A DNA stretch of 64,000 bases from Planotetraspora mira (lineage in GTDB: Bacteria > Actinomycetota > Actinomycetes > Streptosporangiales > Streptosporangiaceae): assembly GCF_016863275.1 (NCBI RefSeq), contig NZ_BOOO01000030.1, positions 62,001-126,000 of the forward strand. Reading direction: 5' to 3'. A model generated the notes under the pieces. That model was not told the origin of the DNA and searched no databases. It saw only the letters and a program-made list of their open reading frames with translations. Shown here in pieces: positions 6 to 47,694 of the stretch. Each line of letters starts with the position of its first letter. Position 1 is the first letter of the stretch. The translations under genes were made by a program, and so were the position numbers.

Positions 6-183
6 GAATCTGCGCATGATCACACATGGAGGATCAGCAGGTCGGGAGCGTCACACGCGAACCCGTGCATGATCACGGGCGATGTTTTCCCAGGTGGACC
101 CGGGTAAATCCGAATCTGCGCATGATCACGACCGGGGTTTGGGCTGGTCGGACACCATGATCACGAACCTGTGCATGATCACG
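6..183 (+). repeat. 53-bp periodic repeat array, locus A (4 copies)
   Basis: Four copies of a 19-bp block like GAACCTGTGCATGATCACG start at 6, 59, 112 and 165, exactly 53 bp apart. The 12-bp core (G[TC]GCATGATCAC) starts at 12, 65, 118 and 171. The 34 bp between blocks differs from unit to unit, but GGTC lies 28 bp after the core start in units 1 and 3 (40-43 and 146-149), and GGTG at that place in unit 2. Unit 3 ends with an extra partial core, CATGATCAC at 156-164. The last core ends 18 bp before the stop codon of the minus-strand MFS gene. The array may extend left of the window. It is not coding, because 53 is not a multiple of 3. Confidence 0.9.
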
Positions 184-9895: not shown

Positions 9896-9968
9896 TAGCC
9901 CCGACCGGATTCGAACCGGCGCTACCGCCTTGAGAGGGCGGCGTCCTAGGCCACTAGACGACGGAGCC
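9896..9968 (-). tRNA. tRNA-Glu (CTC)
   Basis: A 73-nt cloverleaf. The anticodon stem CCGCC/GGCGG encloses CTCTCAA, giving anticodon CTC. The T-arm GGTTCGAATCC is present and the acceptor is GGCTCCG with wobble pairs. CCA is not encoded. It lies 12 bp from a second, nearly identical tRNA-Glu. Confidence 0.97.
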
Positions 9969-9980
9969 TTGCGCAGTGAG

Positions 9981-10053
9981 TAGTCCCGAGCGGATTCGAA
10001 CCGCCGCTACCGCCTTGAGAGGGCGGCGTCCTGGGCCACTAGACGACGGGACC
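9981..10053 (-). tRNA. tRNA-Glu (CTC), second copy
   Basis: A 73-nt cloverleaf with the same anticodon arm as its neighbour (anticodon CTC) but a different acceptor stem (GGTCCCG) and T-stem. The two copies differ mainly in paired positions, consistent with an old duplication kept functional. Confidence 0.97.
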
Positions 10054-10097
10054 TTCGCACTGCATCTTATCCAGCAGAATCCCATGGGGGGATCCAG

Positions 10098-10169
10098 CTG
10101 GGGTACCAGGACTCGAACCTAGACTAGCTGAACCAGAATCAGCCGGGCTGCCAATTACCCCATACCCCA
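10098..10169 (-). tRNA. tRNA-Gln (CTG)
   Basis: A 72-nt cloverleaf with acceptor TGGGGTA, anticodon loop TTCTGGT (anticodon CTG) and T-arm GGTTCGAGTCC. It leads a tRNA-Gln, Glu, Glu cluster read leftward to the terminator at 9852. GltX and GatCAB in the same window are the enzymes of the indirect Gln-tRNA route. Confidence 0.97.
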
Positions 10170-10329
10170 TCTGCTCGCGAACCACAGGGGCCGCTTGCGA
10201 CTCCGAAAGAATAGCCCAGCTTGGGACCCACCACCAAAACGATTCTCGCGCGTCCTGCGATCACAGCGTGAGCTTGACTTATGCGAGGGTGGAACCACAC
10301 GTCAGCACCCCTGTGAGGAGTCGTCACCG

Positions 10330-12309
10330 ATGACGCCGGATGCGAATCCCTTCTTGAGCACCAGCCCGCTCCCCTACCGGTTGCCTCCGTTCCGGGAGAT
10401 CAGGGAGGAGCACTACGCGCCGGCGTTCGAGCAGGGCATGGCCGAGCATCTCGCCGAGGTGACGGCGATCGCGGACGATCCGGAGCCGCCGACGTTCGCG
10501 AACACCATCGAGGCCCTGGAAAGGTCTGGAGAGCTCCTGGACCGGGTCTCCACGGTCTTCTTCAACCAGGTGTCCTCCGACGCGACTCCGGGCGTTCAGG
10601 AGGTCCAGAAGGACATCACGCCCAGGCTGGCCAAGCACGCCGACGCCGTCCACCTCAACGCGAAGCTCTTCGCCCGCATCCAGGCGGTCGAGGCGGCCGA
10701 TGAGGAGCAGCGCTGGCTGCTCGATCGGTATCTCACGGACTTCACCCGGGCGGGGGCCGTACTCGACCGGGAGGACCAGGAGCGCCTCAGGCTGCTCAAC
10801 GAGCGGCTCTCCACGCTGGCGACGACGTTCCAGCAGAACCTCCTCGCCGACACCAACGCGCGGGCCGTGGTCGTCGACGACGTCTCGGAGCTCGACGGGC
10901 TGTCGGCCGACGCGGTGCAGGGGCTCCAGGAGACCGCGAAGGAGCGCGGCCTCGACGGCGAGTACCTGGTGACACTCGTGCTGCCGACCAGCCAGCCGTA
11001 CCTCACGGAGCTGACCGACCGGTCGCTGCGGCAGCGGATCCACGAGGCGTCCACCGGACGCGGCGCCGCCAACGCCGGGCTGATCACCGAGATCGCCACG
11101 CTACGGCAGGAGCGGGCGGGCCTGCTCGGATACGCGAACCACGCGGAGTACGTCCTGGCCGACCAGACGGCCAAGACGACCCAGGCCGTCACGGACATGC
11201 TCGACAGACTCGTTCCCCCGGCCGTCTCGAACGCCCGCAAGGAGCAGTCCGACCTCGAGGAGATCGCCGGACACGCCGTGCAGCCGTGGGACTGGCCCTT
11301 CTACGCCGAGAAGGTGCGAAAGGCGCGCTACGACATCGACAGCGCCAGCATGCGGCCGTATTTCGAGCTGAACACCGTCCTGGAGAAGGGCGTCTTCCAC
11401 GCCGCGACCCGGCTGTACGGCATCACCTTCACCGAGCGGTCCGATCTACACGGATACCACCCGGATGTTCGGGTCTTCGAGGTCTTCAACGAGGACGGCA
11501 CACCGCTCGGCCTCTTCCTCGGGGACTTCCACGCCAGGGCCTCCAAGCGGGGCGGCGCGTGGATGAACAGCCTGGTCAAGCAGTCGGCGCTCCTGGGCAC
11601 CGGGCCCGTCGTGGTCAACAACCTCAACATCGTCAAGGGTGAGCCGACCCTGATGACCTTCGACGAGGTCAACACGATGTTCCACGAGTTCGGGCATGCC
11701 CTGCACGCCCTGTTCTCCGACGTCAGGTTCCCGCGCTTCTCGGGTACGGCCGTGCCGCGTGACTTCGTGGAGTACCCGTCACAGGTCAACGAGATGTGGG
11801 CGACCGATCCGGAGATCCTGGCGAACTACGCGAAGCACTACGAGACCGGCGAGCCCATGCCGCAGGAACTCGTGGACCGCATGCTGGAGGCGCAGAAGTT
11901 CAACCAGGGGTTCGCGACCGTGGAGTACCTGGCCGCCACCCTGCTCGACTGGGCCTGGCACACGGCCTACACGGGCGGCGAGGCGGAGCGGTTCGAGGCG
12001 GAGGCGCTGAAGCGCGCCGGAGTGGACCTTGCGGCCGTGCCTCCCCGCTATCGGAGCACGTATTTCGCTCACATCTGGGCGAGCGGCTACAGCGCCGGCT
12101 ACTACTCCTACATCTGGAGCGAAGTGCTCGACGCCGACACGGTGGAGTGGTTCCAGGAGAACGGCGGCCTCCAGCGTGAGAACGGCGACAAGTTCCGGCG
12201 GGAGTTGTTGTCGAAGGGCGGCAGCGTCGACGCGCTCACGGCCTTCCGGAACTTCCGCGGACGGGACCCGGAGATCACCCCCCTCCTCACCCGCCGCGGC
12301 CTCCTCTAA
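10330..12309 (+). CDS. dcp: M3-family zinc metallopeptidase (peptidyl-dipeptidase Dcp-like)
   Basis: The 659-residue protein has the M3 catalytic motif FHEFGHALH (HExxH, about residues 450-458) and the third zinc ligand Glu in EYPSQVNEMW. Length and the PRDFVEYPSQ region match the Dcp/oligopeptidase A group of cytoplasmic enzymes that trim short peptides. The start at 10330 (MTPDANPFLSTSPLPYR) has GAGGAG upstream. The gene converges on gltX; its 3' flank holds a 19-bp tandem repeat and then the largest 53-bp array. Confidence 0.92.
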   Translation: MTPDANPFLSTSPLPYRLPPFREIREEHYAPAFEQGMAEHLAEVTAIADDPEPPTFANTIEALERSGELLDRVSTVFFNQVSSDATPGVQEVQKDITPRLAKHADAVHLNAKLFARIQAVEAADEEQRWLLDRYLTDFTRAGAVLDREDQERLRLLNERLSTLATTFQQNLLADTNARAVVVDDVSELDGLSADAVQGLQETAKERGLDGEYLVTLVLPTSQPYLTELTDRSLRQRIHEASTGRGAANAGLITEIATLRQERAGLLGYANHAEYVLADQTAKTTQAVTDMLDRLVPPAVSNARKEQSDLEEIAGHAVQPWDWPFYAEKVRKARYDIDSASMRPYFELNTVLEKGVFHAATRLYGITFTERSDLHGYHPDVRVFEVFNEDGTPLGLFLGDFHARASKRGGAWMNSLVKQSALLGTGPVVVNNLNIVKGEPTLMTFDEVNTMFHEFGHALHALFSDVRFPRFSGTAVPRDFVEYPSQVNEMWATDPEILANYAKHYETGEPMPQELVDRMLEAQKFNQGFATVEYLAATLLDWAWHTAYTGGEAERFEAEALKRAGVDLAAVPPRYRSTYFAHIWASGYSAGYYSYIWSEVLDADTVEWFQENGGLQRENGDKFRRELLSKGGSVDALTAFRNFRGRDPEITPLLTRRGLL

Positions 12310-12320
12310 CTGTGCGCAGC

Positions 12321-12415
12321 GGTGGGTGGTAGTGGTAGCCGCGGGTGACGGTGGCAGCGGTAGGTAACGGTGGTAGCGGTGGGTGATGGGGGTAGCGGTG
12401 GGTGATGACGGTAGT
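12321..12415 (+). repeat. 19-bp tandem repeat, five units
   Basis: Five consecutive 19-bp units (consensus GGTGGGTGAYGGTGGTAGC) fill 12321-12415 with no spacing errors. The strand is G-rich and almost lacks C. A sixth partial unit (GATGGGTGATCA) merges into the first core of the neighbouring 53-bp array at 12421. It begins 11 bp after the M3 peptidase stop. Confidence 0.88.
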
Positions 12416-12420
12416 GATGG

Positions 12421-12644
12421 GTGATCATGCACAGGCTCGCGCATGTGCCCCGCGGCCTGCCCAAACCCCGAGCGTGATCATGCACAAGTTCGTAAAGTTG
12501 CCCGCTGACCAGCGCAGATCTCAAACGTGATCATGCACGAGTTCGGCCGCGAGGCTCCTGAGCTGCGAACCCCCCGCACGTGATCATGCGCACATTCTTC
12601 TAAGCGACCCCTGACCAGGAGCATCATCATTGGTGATCATGCAC
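12421..12644 (-). repeat. 53-bp periodic repeat array, locus B left arm (5 copies, inverted)
   Basis: Five copies of the core in reverse orientation (GTGATCATGCAC, once GTGATCATGCGC) start at 12421, 12474, 12527, 12580 and 12633, all exactly 53 bp apart. Read on the minus strand, GGTC or GCTC lies 28 bp after the core in three of four complete units (GGCC in the fourth), flanked by complementary arms such as CGCT-GGTC-AGCG (12503-12514). It faces the right arm at 12692-12917. Confidence 0.92.
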
Positions 12645-12691
12645 TCGGCAAGTGCGACCACCGCCGGTCGCTATAGACCACAAGGGCCGCC

Positions 12692-12917
12692 GAGTGCATG
12701 ATCACGAACGGCATACGGGCAGCTCATGGCATGCTCCCGCGAACTTGTGCATGATCACGAAAGACGTCCGGCCTGGTCAGGCCTCATGAACAAGAACCTG
12801 CGCATGATCACGATTGAGGTCGGTGCAGGTCATGCACCCAAACCCCGAACCTGCGCATGATCACGCCCGGTGTTCGGCCAGCTCAAGGCCTACTTTCACG
12901 AACCCGTGCATGATCAC
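12692..12917 (+). repeat. 53-bp periodic repeat array, locus B right arm (5 copies)
   Basis: Forward cores start at 12694, 12747, 12800, 12853 and 12906, all 53 bp apart. G[GC]TC is at +28 in every complete unit. Self-complementary arms include GGCCT-GGTC-AGGCC (12770-12783) and GGTGCA-GGTCA-TGCACC (12822-12838). The innermost copies of the two arms form a perfect 17-bp inverted repeat (GTGATCATGCACTCGGC at 12633 and its complement at 12689). The last core ends 19 bp before the gltX stop codon. Confidence 0.92.
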
Positions 12918-12936: not shown

Positions 12937-14301
12937 TCAGGTGAGTTTGGTCAGGGTGGTGCGGAGGCGGTCGAGGGAGCGGGCTCGGCCGAGGACCTCG
13001 ATGGACTCGAACAGCGGCAGGCCGACCGTCCTGCCCGTGATCGAGACCCGCACCGGGGCCTGGGCCTTGCCCAGCTTGAGCCCCCGCTCGGCGCCGACCT
13101 CCTCCAGAGCGGCCTTGAGCGACTCCGCGTCCCAGCTGACCGTCTCCAGCCGCTCGGCGTAGCCGGAGATGATCTCCGCCGCGCCCGGCTTCATCGCCTT
13201 GTCCCAGGACGCCTGGTCGAAGGCGGGCTCCTCCAGGAAGAGGAAGTCGACGTTGGCCGTGATCTCCGAGAGCACCGCGATCCGAGTCTGGGCCAGCTCC
13301 GCCACCCTGCCGAACACGCCCCGGTCCCAGGACGGGTCCAGCCACGGCTCGCAGCGGGCGACGAAGATGTCGAGCGGCAGCGCCCGGATGTACTCGCCGT
13401 TGAAGGCCCGCAGCTTCTTCTCGTCGAAGAACGCCGGCGACTGGTTGACGTCCTCCAGCCGGAACAGCGGCATCATCTCCGACCAGGGCAGGATCTCGCG
13501 GTCGTCACCGGGCGACCAGCCGAGCAACATCAGGTAGTTGACCATCGCCTCCGCGAGGTAGCCCTCGTCCCGGTAGGACTCCAGGGCGACCTTGTCGCGA
13601 CGCTTGGACAACTTCTGCCGCTTCTCGTTGACGATCACGGGCACGTGCGCCCACTGGGGCGGCTCGGCGCCGAGCGCCTCCCAGAGAAGCTGCTGCTTGG
13701 GCGTGTTCGACAGGTGCTCCTCGGCCCGGACGACGCGGTCGATCCGCATCTCCATGTCGTCGACCACGTTGGCGAGGACGAACAGCGGCGAGCCGTCGCC
13801 GCGGACGATCACGAAGTCCTCCATGGCCGAGTTCGGGAACTCGACCCGGCCGCGGACCTTGTCCTCCACGACGGTGACGCCGTCGTCGGGCGTGCGGAAG
13901 CGAACCGCGCCCTCGGCCAGACCCCGGTCCCGGCAGAAGCCGTCGTAGCCCTGGTGCTCGGAGCCCGTCCTGGCCTTGACCTCGTCGCGCGTGCAGGTGC
14001 AGTGGTAGGCGCGCCCGTCCTTCAGCAGCTTCGCCGCGGCCTCGCGGTGCTGCTGCTCGTAGGCCGACTGGAAGTAGGGACCCTCGAAGTGGGGCGAGTC
14101 GCCGTTGATGCCGATCCAGGCGAGGGCCGAGATGATGCCCTCCGTCCACTCCGGCCGGTTGCGCGCCGCGTCGGTGTCCTCGATGCGCAGGACGAAGGTG
14201 CCGCCGGACTGCTCGGCGAGCGCCCAGTTGAACAGCGCGGAGCGTGCCCCGCCGACGTGGAACATGCCGGTGGGCGAGGGGGCGAAGCGCACCCTAGTCA
14301 C
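12937..14301 (-). CDS. gltX: Glutamate--tRNA ligase
   Basis: The 454-residue class I synthetase has the HIGH-type motif in [17 protein letters not shown] and the KMSKS-type motif KLSKR (about residue 240). A zinc-site-like CTC.../C segment lies near residues 105-125. It charges tRNA-Glu and, where GatCAB operates, also tRNA-Gln. The GTG start overlaps the stop of the upstream FAH-family gene by 8 nt, so the two are translationally coupled. Its 3' side faces the locus B array. Confidence 0.97.
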
Positions 14302-17373: not shown

Positions 17374-17548
17374 AGTGCCTTGCAGTCTGCCATACGACTT
17401 CAGCATCTGGCACATCGATCTCGAATGACGAGACGGCGGCCTACCGCGACGGCGGCCTTCGGACCGCCGCCGGGGCGGTGTGAACGCGGTGCGAAGCATG
17501 TCCGAATCGCCCTGCTTCTCGCGATCGGCGTTGTCTAGGGTGGTCACC

Positions 17549-18202
17549 ATGAAGGCTGCCAATTTCATCGACATCGCCGTGGCCGAGTACGCCGCCTCGC
17601 ACACCGACCCGCCCGACGACCTGCTGCTCGGCCTGGCGGAGGAGACTCTGCGGATCACCGGCGGGAACGCCGGCATGCAGATCGCCCCCGAGCAGGGCAC
17701 GCTGCTCACCATGCTCGTCCAGCTCACCGGAGCACGGCAGGCCGTCGAGGCGGGGACCTTCACCGGCTACTCGTCGATCTGCATCGCCCGGGGCCTGCCG
17801 TCCGACGGGCACCTTCTGGCCTGCGACGTGAGCGACGAATGGACGTCGATCGCGCGCCGCTACTGGGACAAGGCGGGCGTGGCCGGCAAGATCGAGCTTC
17901 GCCTCGGCCCGGCGGCCGAGACGTTGCGGGCACTGCCTCGCGAGGAGTGGATCGACTTCGCGTTCATCGACGCGGACAAGGCCGGCTACCCCGTTTACTA
18001 CGAGGAGATCCTCGTACGGCTCGCGCCGGGCGGGTTGATCGCCGTGGACAACACGCTGCAGCACGGCAAAATCACCGACGCCTCCAACGGAGGCAATGTG
18101 CCGGGGATGCGTGCGTTCAACGACCTCGTGGCGGGTGATTCCCGAGTGACCAGCGTGCTGCTGCCGATCGCCGACGGGCTCACCCTGGTCCGTAAGAACT
18201 GA
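17549..18202 (+). CDS. O-methyltransferase, family 3 (CCoAOMT/COMT-like)
   Basis: The 217-residue SAM-dependent enzyme shows motif I (VEAGTFTGYSSICIARGL), the metal-site region IDFAFIDADKAGYPVYY, and VDNTLQHGKI. Members methylate catechol-like hydroxyls using a divalent metal. The ATG at 17549 is preceded by TAGGGT and 7 nt, so it is probably leaderless. The start of the 53-bp array locus C is 9 bp after its stop. Confidence 0.9.
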   Translation: MKAANFIDIAVAEYAASHTDPPDDLLLGLAEETLRITGGNAGMQIAPEQGTLLTMLVQLTGARQAVEAGTFTGYSSICIARGLPSDGHLLACDVSDEWTSIARRYWDKAGVAGKIELRLGPAAETLRALPREEWIDFAFIDADKAGYPVYYEEILVRLAPGGLIAVDNTLQHGKITDASNGGNVPGMRAFNDLVAGDSRVTSVLLPIADGLTLVRKN

Positions 18203-18205
18203 CTC

Positions 18206-18402
18206 CGGCGTGTGCATGATCACGGATGGTGGAAGGCCAGGTCGGCGGCCTTCCACCGAATTCATGCATGATCACGAATGGTGAATGCGCAGGTCACGGA
18301 TGCTCCTCCCGAACCTGTGCATGATCACCACAAGGGTTGTGGCAGCTCAGCCGCCCTCGCCACGAACCTGTGCATGATCACCACAAGGGTTGTGGCAGCT
18401 CA
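18206..18402 (+). repeat. 53-bp periodic repeat array, locus C (4 copies)
   Basis: Cores start at 18212, 18264, 18317 and 18370 (spacings 52, 53, 53). G[GC]TC lies at +28 in all four. Unit 1 holds a perfect 11-bp hairpin, GGTGGAAGGCC / GGCCTTCCACC (228-238 and 247-257 past 18000), around the loop AGGTCGGC. Units 3 and 4 share their variable part almost completely (ACAAGGGTTGTGGCAGCTCAG), so one is a recent copy. The ilvE stop codon (18400-18402) lies inside the GCTCA of unit 4. Confidence 0.92.
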
Positions 18403-19491
18403 GCAGATCTTGCGGACCCAGTTGTGGGTGTCGGGGCGGGTGCCGAACTGGATGCCCATGAGCTCTTCGCGGATCTTGAGGGTGACCGGGCCGGGGGTGC
18501 CGTCGCCGACGGTCCAGCCGCGGTCGGATCCCTTGACCGTGCCCACGGGCGTGACGACGGCGGCCGTCCCGCACGCGAAGACCTCGGTGAGCTCCCCCGA
18601 CTCGCAGGCCGACTGCCACTCCTCGATGGAGATCTTGCCCTCCTCGGCCTTGACCCCGAGCTCGCCCGCCATGCTCAGGATCGAGTCGCGGGTGATGCCC
18701 GGAAGCAGGGTGCCGGTCAGGGCCGGGGTCACGAGGCGGTCGCCGAAGACGAAGAACAGGTTCATCCCGCCCATCTCCTCGACCCAGCGGTGCTCGAAGG
18801 CGTCGAGCCAGACCACCTGGTCACAGCCCTCCTCGACGGCCTGGCGCTGGGCGACGAAGGCCGCCGCGTAGTTGCCGCCGCACTTGGCGAACCCGGTGCC
18901 GCCGGGAGCCGCCCGGGTGTACTCGGTCGACAGCCAGACCGACACCGGCCGCACGCCGCCGGAGAAGTACGACGCCGCCGGCGAGGCGATCACCATGTAC
19001 CGGTAGTTCCGCGACGGGTGGTTCACCCCGAGCCCGGCCTGTGTGGCGATCATGAAGGGGCGCAGGTAGAGGCTGTGTCCCTCGGTGGTCGGCACCCAGT
19101 CGCGGTCGGTCTGGACGAGCAGTTCGAGCGACTCGACGAAGGTGTCCTCGGGCAGTTCCGGCATCGCCATGCGGAGGGCGGACTGGTTGAAGCGGGCGGC
19201 GTTGGCGTACGGGCGGAACGTGACGATCGACCCGTTGGACTGCCGATAGGCCTTGAGACCCTCGAAAAGCTCCTGGGCGTAGTGGAACACCGAGGTCGCG
19301 GGGTCGAGGACCAGCGGCCCGTACGGCTCGAGCCTGGCGTCGTGCCAGCCGCGTCCTTCGGTCCAGTCGATGGAGACCATGTGATCGGTGAACGTCTGCC
19401 CGAAGCCGGGGTTCGCCAGTACCTGCTCGCGCTCGGCCACGGTGCGGGCCTGCTGGTTGAGCTGCACGTCGAAGCTGAGCTGGGTGGTCAT
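18400..19491 (-). CDS. ilvE: Branched-chain amino acid aminotransferase
   Basis: The 363-residue PLP enzyme of fold type IV has the pyridoxal lysine in TGFAKCGGNYA (about residue 200), FHYAQELFEGLKAYR near residue 70, and FACGTAAVVTPVG near 315. It carries out the last step of Leu, Ile and Val synthesis. The start at 19491 (MTTQLSFDVQLNQQ) has GAAGGAT upstream. It follows leuB on the same strand after a terminator. Its stop codon lies within a 53-bp repeat unit. Confidence 0.97.
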   Translation of the reverse strand: MTTQLSFDVQLNQQARTVAEREQVLANPGFGQTFTDHMVSIDWTEGRGWHDARLEPYGPLVLDPATSVFHYAQELFEGLKAYRQSNGSIVTFRPYANAARFNQSALRMAMPELPEDTFVESLELLVQTDRDWVPTTEGHSLYLRPFMIATQAGLGVNHPSRNYRYMVIASPAASYFSGGVRPVSVWLSTEYTRAAPGGTGFAKCGGNYAAAFVAQRQAVEEGCDQVVWLDAFEHRWVEEMGGMNLFFVFGDRLVTPALTGTLLPGITRDSILSMAGELGVKAEEGKISIEEWQSACESGELTEVFACGTAAVVTPVGTVKGSDRGWTVGDGTPGPVTLKIREELMGIQFGTRPDTHNWVRKIC

Positions 19492-19573
19492 GGCGAGGAT
19501 CCTTCTCTCTACGTCGTCATCTTCATTGTGCGACGAAGCGGCTAACGAAAACCTAGGGCATCCGATGGGTATG

Positions 19574-19612
19574 AAAAAGCGCATGGTGGCCCTAACCGGG
19601 CCGCCATGCGCT
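19574..19612 (-). terminator. Intrinsic terminator downstream of leuB
   Basis: A long stem, AGCGCATGG...CCATGCGCT with GGCCC/GGGCC inside (19578-19612), is followed on the minus strand by TTTT. It lies 25 bp past the leuB stop and before ilvE, so ilvE probably has its own promoter. Confidence 0.85.
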
Positions 19613-47517: not shown

Positions 47518-47694
47518 GCGCCTGCGCATGATCACGGTCGGTGTAAGTGCAGGTCGGGCGCGATGATCGCGAATTTGCGCATGATCACGAATTGGATCGG
47601 CGCAGGTCAAGTGGGCCACACCCGAACCTGTGCATGATCACGACAGGTGTGGGCGCAGGTCAGGCGGGATGTTTCCGAAGGTGTGCATGATCAC
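47518..47694 (+). repeat. 53-bp periodic repeat array, locus D (4 copies)
   Basis: Cores start at 47524, 47577, 47630 and 47683, all 53 bp apart; GGTC is at +28 in the three complete units. Common flanks such as GCGCAGGTCA recur. Unit 1 ends with a degenerate extra core (GATGATCGC) like the one in locus A. The last core overlaps the stop codon of the minus-strand VanW gene (TCA at 47691-47693 within TGATCAC). Confidence 0.92.

Follow-up and report, generated by a model that had tools for sequence, protein, structure and literature searches.

The window, by which is meant the whole 64,000-nucleotide stretch of DNA from the soil actinobacterium Planotetraspora mira that was analyzed, contains 22 copies of a short core, RYGCATGATCAC, all recovered by exact match at the four places (6-183, 12421-12917, 18206-18402 and 47518-47694) where a first-pass annotation had reported them. 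With one mismatch allowed there are 23 core matches, compared with a mean of 1.18 in shuffled sequence, and 0 of 100 shuffles reach 23. Core spacing is 53 bp with a single 52-bp exception (18212 to 18264), exactly as that annotation had it. The ten cores of 12421-12917 are likewise real, but it had been overlooked that they form two opposed arms, one of five minus-strand cores and one of five plus-strand cores, whose innermost core starts lie 61 bp apart (Table 1). Read in the sense of the gene that its arm faces, each unit is CGTGATCATGCACAGGTTCG... and continues, ~31 bp past the core, with TGACCTG, a second and weaker motif of each 53-bp unit, the next core following 22 bp further on (31 + 22 = 53). 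Apart from tRNAs the window yields no Rfam match at gathering thresholds, in keeping with the annotation, which knew of no named element with such features, and four related loci yield two Rfam matches, both far below the gathering score. Gene calls here and throughout are our own codon-usage calls and are approximate. The window also carries three minus-strand tRNA genes at 9896-10169 and a 19-bp tandem repeat, AGCGGTGGGTGACGGTGGT, at 12316-12425, which occupies the whole space separating the left arm from the stop of the M3 peptidase gene.

Table 1. Arms of the phased arrays in the window and the genes beside them
Feature	Coordinates	Strand	Context
Arm, four cores, 53-bp spacing	12..182	+	ends 18 bp before the stop of a minus-strand MFS transporter gene (201-1694)
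Left arm, five cores, sense reading GTGATCATGCAC...	12421..12644	-	111 bp downstream of a plus-strand M3 peptidase gene (10195-12309)
Right arm, five cores	12694..12917	+	ends 19 bp before the stop of a minus-strand class I (E/Q) tRNA synthetase gene (12937-14301)
Meeting point of the arms	12633..12705	.	inner cores extend to a 17-bp inverted repeat (GTGATCATGCACTCGGC / GCCGAGTGCATGATCAC), read from the sequence
Single arm, four cores	18212..18381	+	between convergent O-methyltransferase (17480-18202, +) and class IV aminotransferase (18400-19584, -) genes
Single arm, four cores	47524..47694	+	between convergent genes; the right gene's called stop TGA lies inside the outer core

The array at 18212..18381 is also present at a P. 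phitsanulokensis locus (L063). For the arm at 47524..47694, the orthologous gene pair in P. thailandica (L056) carries an arm in the opposite orientation, and the aligned stretch of Planotetraspora sp. A-T 1434 carries no arm at the counterpart position; the opposite orientations would reflect either reciprocal arm loss or independent placement.

The first-pass annotation had suggested searching for the motif through the whole genome and in related genera, and it is widespread in the genome and found elsewhere in the family. The P. mira genome (hereafter G000; the other genomes with a Planotetraspora name are G125, P. kaengkrachanensis; G022, P. silvatica; G077, P. thailandica; and G059, Planotetraspora sp. 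A-T 1434) has 332 + 311 = 643 core pairs spaced 50-54 bp, compared with 0 for the reversed control pattern, corresponding by extrapolation at about three pairs per arm to roughly 200 arms. The strict pattern occurs in 7 of 150 family genomes, comprising five of one genus (P. mira included), G059 and G119 (three pairs); strict pairs number 505 in G059, 138 in G104 and 575-734 in four sister genomes of G104. In the 102 named Planotetraspora loci plus the fetched stretches, 761 within-arm intervals measure 53 bp (688), 52 bp (58), 54 bp (13) or 51 bp (2), chaining having been permitted at 51-55 bp only; when core distances of any size up to 130 bp are tabulated in three stretches, 53 and its double are by far the commonest. 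The same material holds 275 arms with 1036 cores in 186 loci (87 '-+' pairs, 98 single arms and one '-++'), orthologous loci entering this and some other counts repeatedly unless these are marked as non-redundant. Neighboring units are somewhat alike, and unit number differs between species by whole units. On the core strand, GAACCTGT is the commonest form in the sister species; in P. thailandica 21 of 33 sampled cores have GAACTTCT or GAAGTTCT at this position.

The sole lone exact core in 380 kb of contig C1 (G000 C1:100830, L116) is conserved at G125 C1:102509 and at G022 C2:65115. It precedes a subtilase-like gene, and in G000 and G125 an array stands at the 3' end of that gene; the idea that a lone core marks a regulator gene was abandoned, as its neighborhood on C1 yielded no regulator.

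Arrays in further genera are picked up by a model of the unit built from sequence alone, and the core is met again, with different suffixes, in other genera as well as in three distant families. In genera g65 and g34 the arms inspected consist mostly of three cores 52-54 bp apart, their suffixes being position-specific; a palindrome (for example CGTGATCATGCAATTGCATGATCACG) marks the junction of several arm pairs. The pattern GTGATCWTG at 52-54 bp is present in 19 of 297 genomes of the order, seven of them with one or two matches only; among the 15 g65 genomes it is found in G186, G243, G119 and G193, with two matches in G199 and none in ten. At one g65 locus, compared over 14 genomes of which 10 reached alignment, inspection by eye finds a plain hairpin in the corresponding gap of three relatives without arrays; in three more the hairpin is accompanied by remnants resembling the core. 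A looser pattern is found in 13 of 394 genomes of the class, of which six have one match and may be chance; multi-copy genomes besides G000 and G119 are G384, G790, G740, G831 and G915, each with its own suffixes and with spacing from 22 to 68 bp. The annotation had named as refuting its proposal a motif confined to this stretch or a random spacing elsewhere; within the family neither is the case, and in the distant families the spacing does vary. The inverted-core pattern occurs in 47 of 200 genomes (array centers included), and genus g48 and others have, in place of arrays, single palindromes with the same core. Fifteen g48 palindromes have complementary interiors (0.74 vs 0.52) and flanks (0.79 vs 0.53). 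The GTGATCWTG-core hairpins at L257-L271 in genus g48 lie in many cases 9-20 bp from a called gene end, and the two g48 genomes concerned gave no match to the nuclease profile described below. Between the arms of several G384 loci (L278-L282) a further repeat is visible by eye; its ends, CAGAATGCT...AGCATTCTG, are inverted.

Comparison of orthologous loci shows that the arrays are inherited and that the core is under selection. For 12 of the 13 array loci of G000 contig C1, G125 also has an array at the corresponding position, the exception being the 60-kb site, where its DNA is different; there has therefore been little recent mobility. Between G000 and G022 (8 loci) the cores differ at 8/440 and the rest of the spacer at 161/1040 positions; between G000 and G125 (10 loci, the non-homologous 60-kb locus excluded) the values are 8/394 and 375/933, or 47/447 and 443/1063 if that locus is kept. 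Divergence at orthologous loci is accordingly 0.018-0.020 in cores and 0.155-0.402 in spacers, a contrast of ~nine- to twenty-fold. The spacers look neutral, because they differ at least as much as the synonymous sites of the nuclease gene described below (one gene; dS 0.151 for G022 and 0.390 for G125). Their length is nearly fixed. In pairwise alignments, which started from 140 intergenic regions (11 with arrays), the G022 arrays show 177 substitutions and three gaps (15, 16 and 32 bp), with 0 gaps of 1-2 bp compared with ~10 predicted from control intergenic DNA (1108 substitutions and 100 gaps, 61 of 1-2 bp), and the G125 arrays show 437 substitutions and nine gaps, with one of 1-2 bp compared with ~14 predicted from control (2620 substitutions and 163 gaps, 85 of 1-2 bp). 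Multi-species alignments give four 1-bp gaps per 240 substitutions for G022 (~13 predicted) and two per 560 for G125 (~18 predicted). The core is under purifying selection and small indels are rare within arrays; the earlier description of variable spacers of fixed length thus holds, with intervals inside arms of 51-54 bp, mostly 53, and spacers that drift. A CRISPR array was rejected, the spacers being inherited and drifting between species.

In G104, 6 of 8 compared loci retain at least two exact cores, and the other two retain one and none. Its remaining arrays have a core divergence of 4/97, a spacer divergence of 48/234 and zero gaps of 1-2 bp; the pairwise gap ratio (0.066 vs 0.068 in control) is driven largely by long gaps. 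The conserved cores and the absence of 1-2 bp gaps give no support to relaxed selection after gene loss, and a reading of relaxed spacing was dropped; G104 thus shows loss of units and of whole arrays, and no decay in the cores still present.

Arms begin ~18 bp past stop codons and mostly face the 3' end of a gene. Among 267 classified arm ends 182 lie towards a 3' end and 85 towards a 5' end, and of those at a distance of -10 to 60 bp, 141 are of the first kind and 26 of the second. For arms of at least two cores that start within 150 bp the 3':5' ratio is 26:4 in G000 and G022, 106:36 over the named loci, 9:3 in A-T 1434 and 25:4 summed over five distant genomes; depending on set and distance limit, 13 to 32% of arms face 5' ends. 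The polarity of single arms is modest (58 of 81 outer and 48 of 81 inner ends towards a 3' end). In 36 arms the gene-end distance is -10 to -1, and lower quantiles fall at -4, where the core's own TGA is the stop of the called gene. Array loci are convergent in 67 cases, tandem in 91 and divergent in 13 (15 lie at sequence edges), compared with 97 convergent, 251 tandem and 101 divergent among intergenic gaps of at least 100 bp in five stretches (array gaps included). On non-redundant ends, with correction by dinucleotide shuffles, hairpins more than 5 kcal/mol better than shuffled sequence occur at 13 of 101 arm-facing ends and at 100 of 300 control ends (P 6e-5), a scarcity that points to a role in termination. 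Arm pairs 0.6-3 kb apart are arranged '-gene+' in 11 of 14 cases, with one called gene enclosed in ten and three in L012; to judge from their sequences, the genes enclosed by close pairs are presumably typA-, fdhD- and UbiA-like, so that unrelated single genes (for example the typA-like one) are also bracketed by arms.

One bracketed gene recurs. In G831 and G915 large array clusters each enclose one gene, homologous to the gene enclosed at P. thailandica L068, with identities among the three proteins of 64% and 36-38%. A profile built from these three bracketed seeds and searched in 27 genomes gives strong homologs (E 3.5e-69 or better), one each, in G000, G022, G077, G125, G119, G186, G243, G384, G790, G740, G831 and G915; only weaker matches in G059, G034, G084, G754, G768, G103 and G023; and no match at E 1e-8 in G104, G193, G139, G167, G065, G097, G089 and G048. 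When ~1.5 kb on each side was scanned for cores with one mismatch allowed (30 fetched loci), the strong homolog was found between a '>' arm on its left and a '<' arm on its right in 12 of 12 genomes, with zero wrongly oriented cores. The link was noticed post hoc in three genomes, which seeded the profile because their genes were bracketed, and was then confirmed in the other nine (9/9), which are independent. Apart from a fragment in G084, the fetched set includes 17 weaker loci, which represent 16 genes because one gene is split over two loci; 0 of 17 are bracketed, and a single stray core lies near three of them (Fisher 3e-8 for strong vs weaker, 16 controls). The gene also keeps company with the arrays: 12 of 17 array-bearing genomes have a strong homolog and one more, G084, has a fragment of the nuclease gene placed between arms, compared with 0 of 8 array-less genomes (Fisher 0.0016). 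Array-poor G104 and G193 have no strong homolog, and in G059 and G034 arrays are present and no strong bracketed homolog was detected; we conjecture that in assemblies of 140 contigs (G059) and 170 contigs (G034) a repeat-flanked gene could be missed. In P. mira the gene lies at C30:192057-192935 (L308), 66 kb to the right of the window, and its protein has 322 residues. The annotation's statement that no transposase, cas gene or integrase is near may hold in the window and is misleading for the genome.

Each bracket examined spans about 1.1 kb and has room for a single gene, of about 0.9-1.0 kb; a bicistronic AbiEi/AbiEii operon is thus not found inside the brackets. The gene is under purifying selection (dN/dS 0.10-0.17 in six pairs, and 0.11-0.17 in three comparisons of the P. 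mira gene). Four of four proteins examined (P. mira, G119, G384 and G790) match AbiEi_1 (PF09407, cut-off 22.2 bits) at 22.2 to 46.3 bits, and one of the four reaches the AbiEi_4 cut-off; of the seeds, L068 falls below the AbiEi Pfam cut-off and L283 and L284 show no such match. PADLOC AbiEi profiles match the P. mira protein to 8e-15 and match L283 too. MTES_1575 (PF18741, cut-off 38.2) is reached by P. mira (40.9 bits) and G119 (43.9 bits), with G384 (31.2 bits), G790 (34.0 bits), L283 (21.1 bits) and L284 below cut-off. Residues E192, D224, E235, D237 and H242 are invariant in 12 rows, D224, E235, D237 and H242 being putative catalytic residues. Vsr chains in the PDB match the nuclease only at E 0.3-0.5, and AlphaFold on one protein gave pLDDT 39. 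A DUF559 protein from Caulobacter is treated in one study as a Vsr-like endonuclease (PMC12907096).

Together, arrays and gene point to a bacterial system, so far undescribed, by which transcription would be ended or insulated. The explanation preferred here, to which we give roughly an even chance, is that the arrays are dispersed boxes of the bracketed AbiEi/Vsr-like protein and act as DNA-bound barriers at gene ends. The protein would combine an AbiEi-type winged-helix DNA-binding half with a Vsr-like PD-(D/E)XK (MTES_1575/DUF559) nuclease half, and the bracketed nuclease probably recognizes the repeats. Its putative box is GTGATCATGCACAGGTTCGG, of which the winged helix would read the ~11-bp core common to all lineages (CGTGATCWTGC, sense) and the AbiEi C-terminal part the ~10-bp lineage-specific suffix. 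We infer binding from the anatomy that the boxes share with AbiEi sites, an 11-bp core plus a lineage suffix. Streptococcus AbiEi binds inverted repeats, and it is proposed that each 23-bp half site takes up one monomer, whose winged helix contacts a conserved ~11 bp and whose C-terminal domain contacts the remainder (PMC3985639). The two systems share the AbiEi-type winged helix and C-terminal domain and inverted boxes (~11 conserved plus further bases) beside the own gene, whereas here the AbiEi half is fused to a predicted Vsr-like nuclease, a single gene stands between the arms in the brackets examined, and boxes are dispersed through the genome in phased arrays at gene ends. In Planotetraspora and relatives mostly 3-5 boxes would stand head to tail every 53 bp, that is, every five helical turns, an arrangement that would let protein copies align along a single side of the DNA, and TGACCTG at +31 would split the 53 bp into three plus two turns. 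The sense box ~18 bp past the stop would face the incoming RNA polymerase, and the loaded arm may form a barrier that stops it, ending or insulating transcription in place of a hairpin terminator. The annotation had offered a nucleoid, insulator or 3'-end system; the evidence favors the latter two, and what it had missed is the stop-codon adjacency, the +31 motif, the two-arm design and the bracketed gene.

TTF-I Sal boxes are roadblock terminators, and the mode proposed here is alike in that a DNA-bound protein would halt the polymerase at gene ends. Roadblocks (Reb1, LacI) in which a DNA-bound protein stops RNA polymerase are described in one report (PMC10310618). Among the papers listed in searches of the open-access PMC literature there was no dedicated genome-wide set of bacterial roadblocks. 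Nor did any listed paper describe the arrays or the gene-array pairing, most subscription journals and bioRxiv lying outside the coverage, and among the matches listed for the core 10-mer in PMC text the subjects were unrelated.

Several observations would also suit a REPtron-like selfish element, in which '>>> nuclease gene <<<' would be the autonomous form, the remaining arrays internal-deletion derivatives or captured-gene cassettes, and gene 3' ends merely tolerated sites. The bracketing of the nuclease gene between outward arms in all 12 genomes, the '-gene+' order of most close arm pairs (11/14), the patchy distribution over distant families with genome-specific suffixes, and the weaker G059 member flanked by two copies of a different GATCATG palindrome would all be expected of such an element. 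REP/RAYT systems comprise high-copy intergenic repeats with a constant tag and a variable part, and an enzyme gene flanked by its own repeat (PMC3733652; PMC2817692); REPtrons and BIMEs share with the arrays the high copy number, the constant plus variable part and the flanked enzyme gene, whereas the units here are tandem, phased direct repeats without hairpin covariation. A REP/RAYT system as such was rejected, as there is no palindromic hairpin covariation and the Y1/HUH (PF01797) transposase is absent from 7 of the 13 array-bearing genomes tested (G000, G022, G104, G125, G059, G186 and G243), P. mira included; it is present in the six others and in array-less ones. Purifying selection on the core and the rarity of small indels would be unexpected in dead copies, the sharing of nearly all C1 loci with G125 and the hairpin scarcity at arm-facing ends do not favor the selfish reading, and no target-site duplications were noticed when the alignments were read by eye. 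The selection seen on the dispersed arrays speaks against their being purely selfish; a REPtron-like past is likely, although as an account of what the arrays are at present it is rather unlikely.

If the same protein bound the same sites without a direct effect on termination, the arrays would be chromosome-organizing or supercoil-insulating sites (BIME- or nucleoid-protein-like). The enrichment of convergent regions, the depletion of divergent ones and the five-turn phasing are consistent with this; the hairpin scarcity at arm-facing ends points instead to termination, and such a role appears improbable. Slightly harder to credit is a Rho-dependent or other RNA-level 3'-end signal, in which the C-rich, hairpin-poor sense strand would matter and the core would be an RNA or pause signal. 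Sense spacers in G384, G831 and G915 do have C 0.63-0.66 and G 0.15-0.22, control ends in the same genomes (7 to 14 per genome) being without C skew, and the sense polarity at 3' ends would fit; but in Planotetraspora the skew of the spacers is mild (C 0.36-0.39, G 0.27-0.29) and yet their length is nearly fixed, the arms directed towards 5' ends do not fit, and the bracketed gene of DNA-binding type is left unexplained. Nor is there RNA covariation. An RNA hairpin unit was rejected, as no pairing covariation is found within 237 non-redundant units, the strongest core-centered signals being most likely artefacts because 52- and 53-bp registers mix there; arm-arm pairing in Planotetraspora was likewise set aside, being weak at the center (0.40 vs 0.36) and in the outer flanks (0.51 vs 0.46). 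Functionless neutral tandem repeats (VNTR or MIRU-like), with which the likeness of adjacent units and the whole-unit variation in number would agree, can be practically dismissed, being contradicted by the core-versus-spacer divergence in G022 and G125 as well as by the rare small indels, the 3'-end placement and the gene link. Mycobacterium tuberculosis, also an actinobacterium, has intergenic MIRU repeats, several of them with units of 53 bp; unlike these, the arrays conserve mainly the core and have inverted arms, and we take their sequence to be unrelated.

The gene-end barrier explanation has points against it: the exceptions G059 and G034, the conserved cores of G104, the arms facing 5' ends, the modest polarity of single arms, the unrelated bracketed genes, the variation of spacing in distant genomes, and the seeds L283 and L284, in which AbiEi Pfam matches are lacking and MTES_1575 falls below its cut-off. 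Conserved cores in gene-less G104 would fit either recent loss or a further binding factor. A bolder form of the barrier explanation, put forward tentatively and with rather less than even confidence, is that a solitary AbiEi-guided Vsr-like nuclease and its hundreds of dispersed, phased boxes constitute a two-component roadblock termination that replaces hairpins in several actinobacterial lineages, suffix and protein switching specificity together (CACAGGTTCGG vs CAGAAGTTCGG in P. thailandica). If true, many bacterial gene ends would have dedicated, site-specific protein-on-DNA termination or insulation, comparable to eukaryotic roadblock termination and assembled from toxin-antitoxin and DNA-repair parts. 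The uncharacterized AbiEi + MTES_1575/DUF559 family would thereby gain a testable role, G104 and G193 offer natural gene-less genomes for comparison, and the many natural suffix/protein pairs would allow the joint change of a DNA-binding protein and its hundreds of sites to be followed.

Two further members of the nuclease family lie beside repeats of other kinds. On either side of a weaker G059 member (L317:1415-1477 and 2453-2515) stands a different palindrome, TCGATCATG...CATGATCGA, of GATCATG type; its two copies are 92% identical, and the arrangement suggests that other nuclease/repeat pairs exist. A 47%-identical homolog in Nonomuraea gerenzanensis (L333, NZ_LT559118.1) has no GTGATC core array adjoining it and has 22-nt inverted repeats and a 27-nt direct repeat beside it, perhaps another box family; the record NZ_LT559118.1, of 11.85 Mb, is filed as a plasmid.
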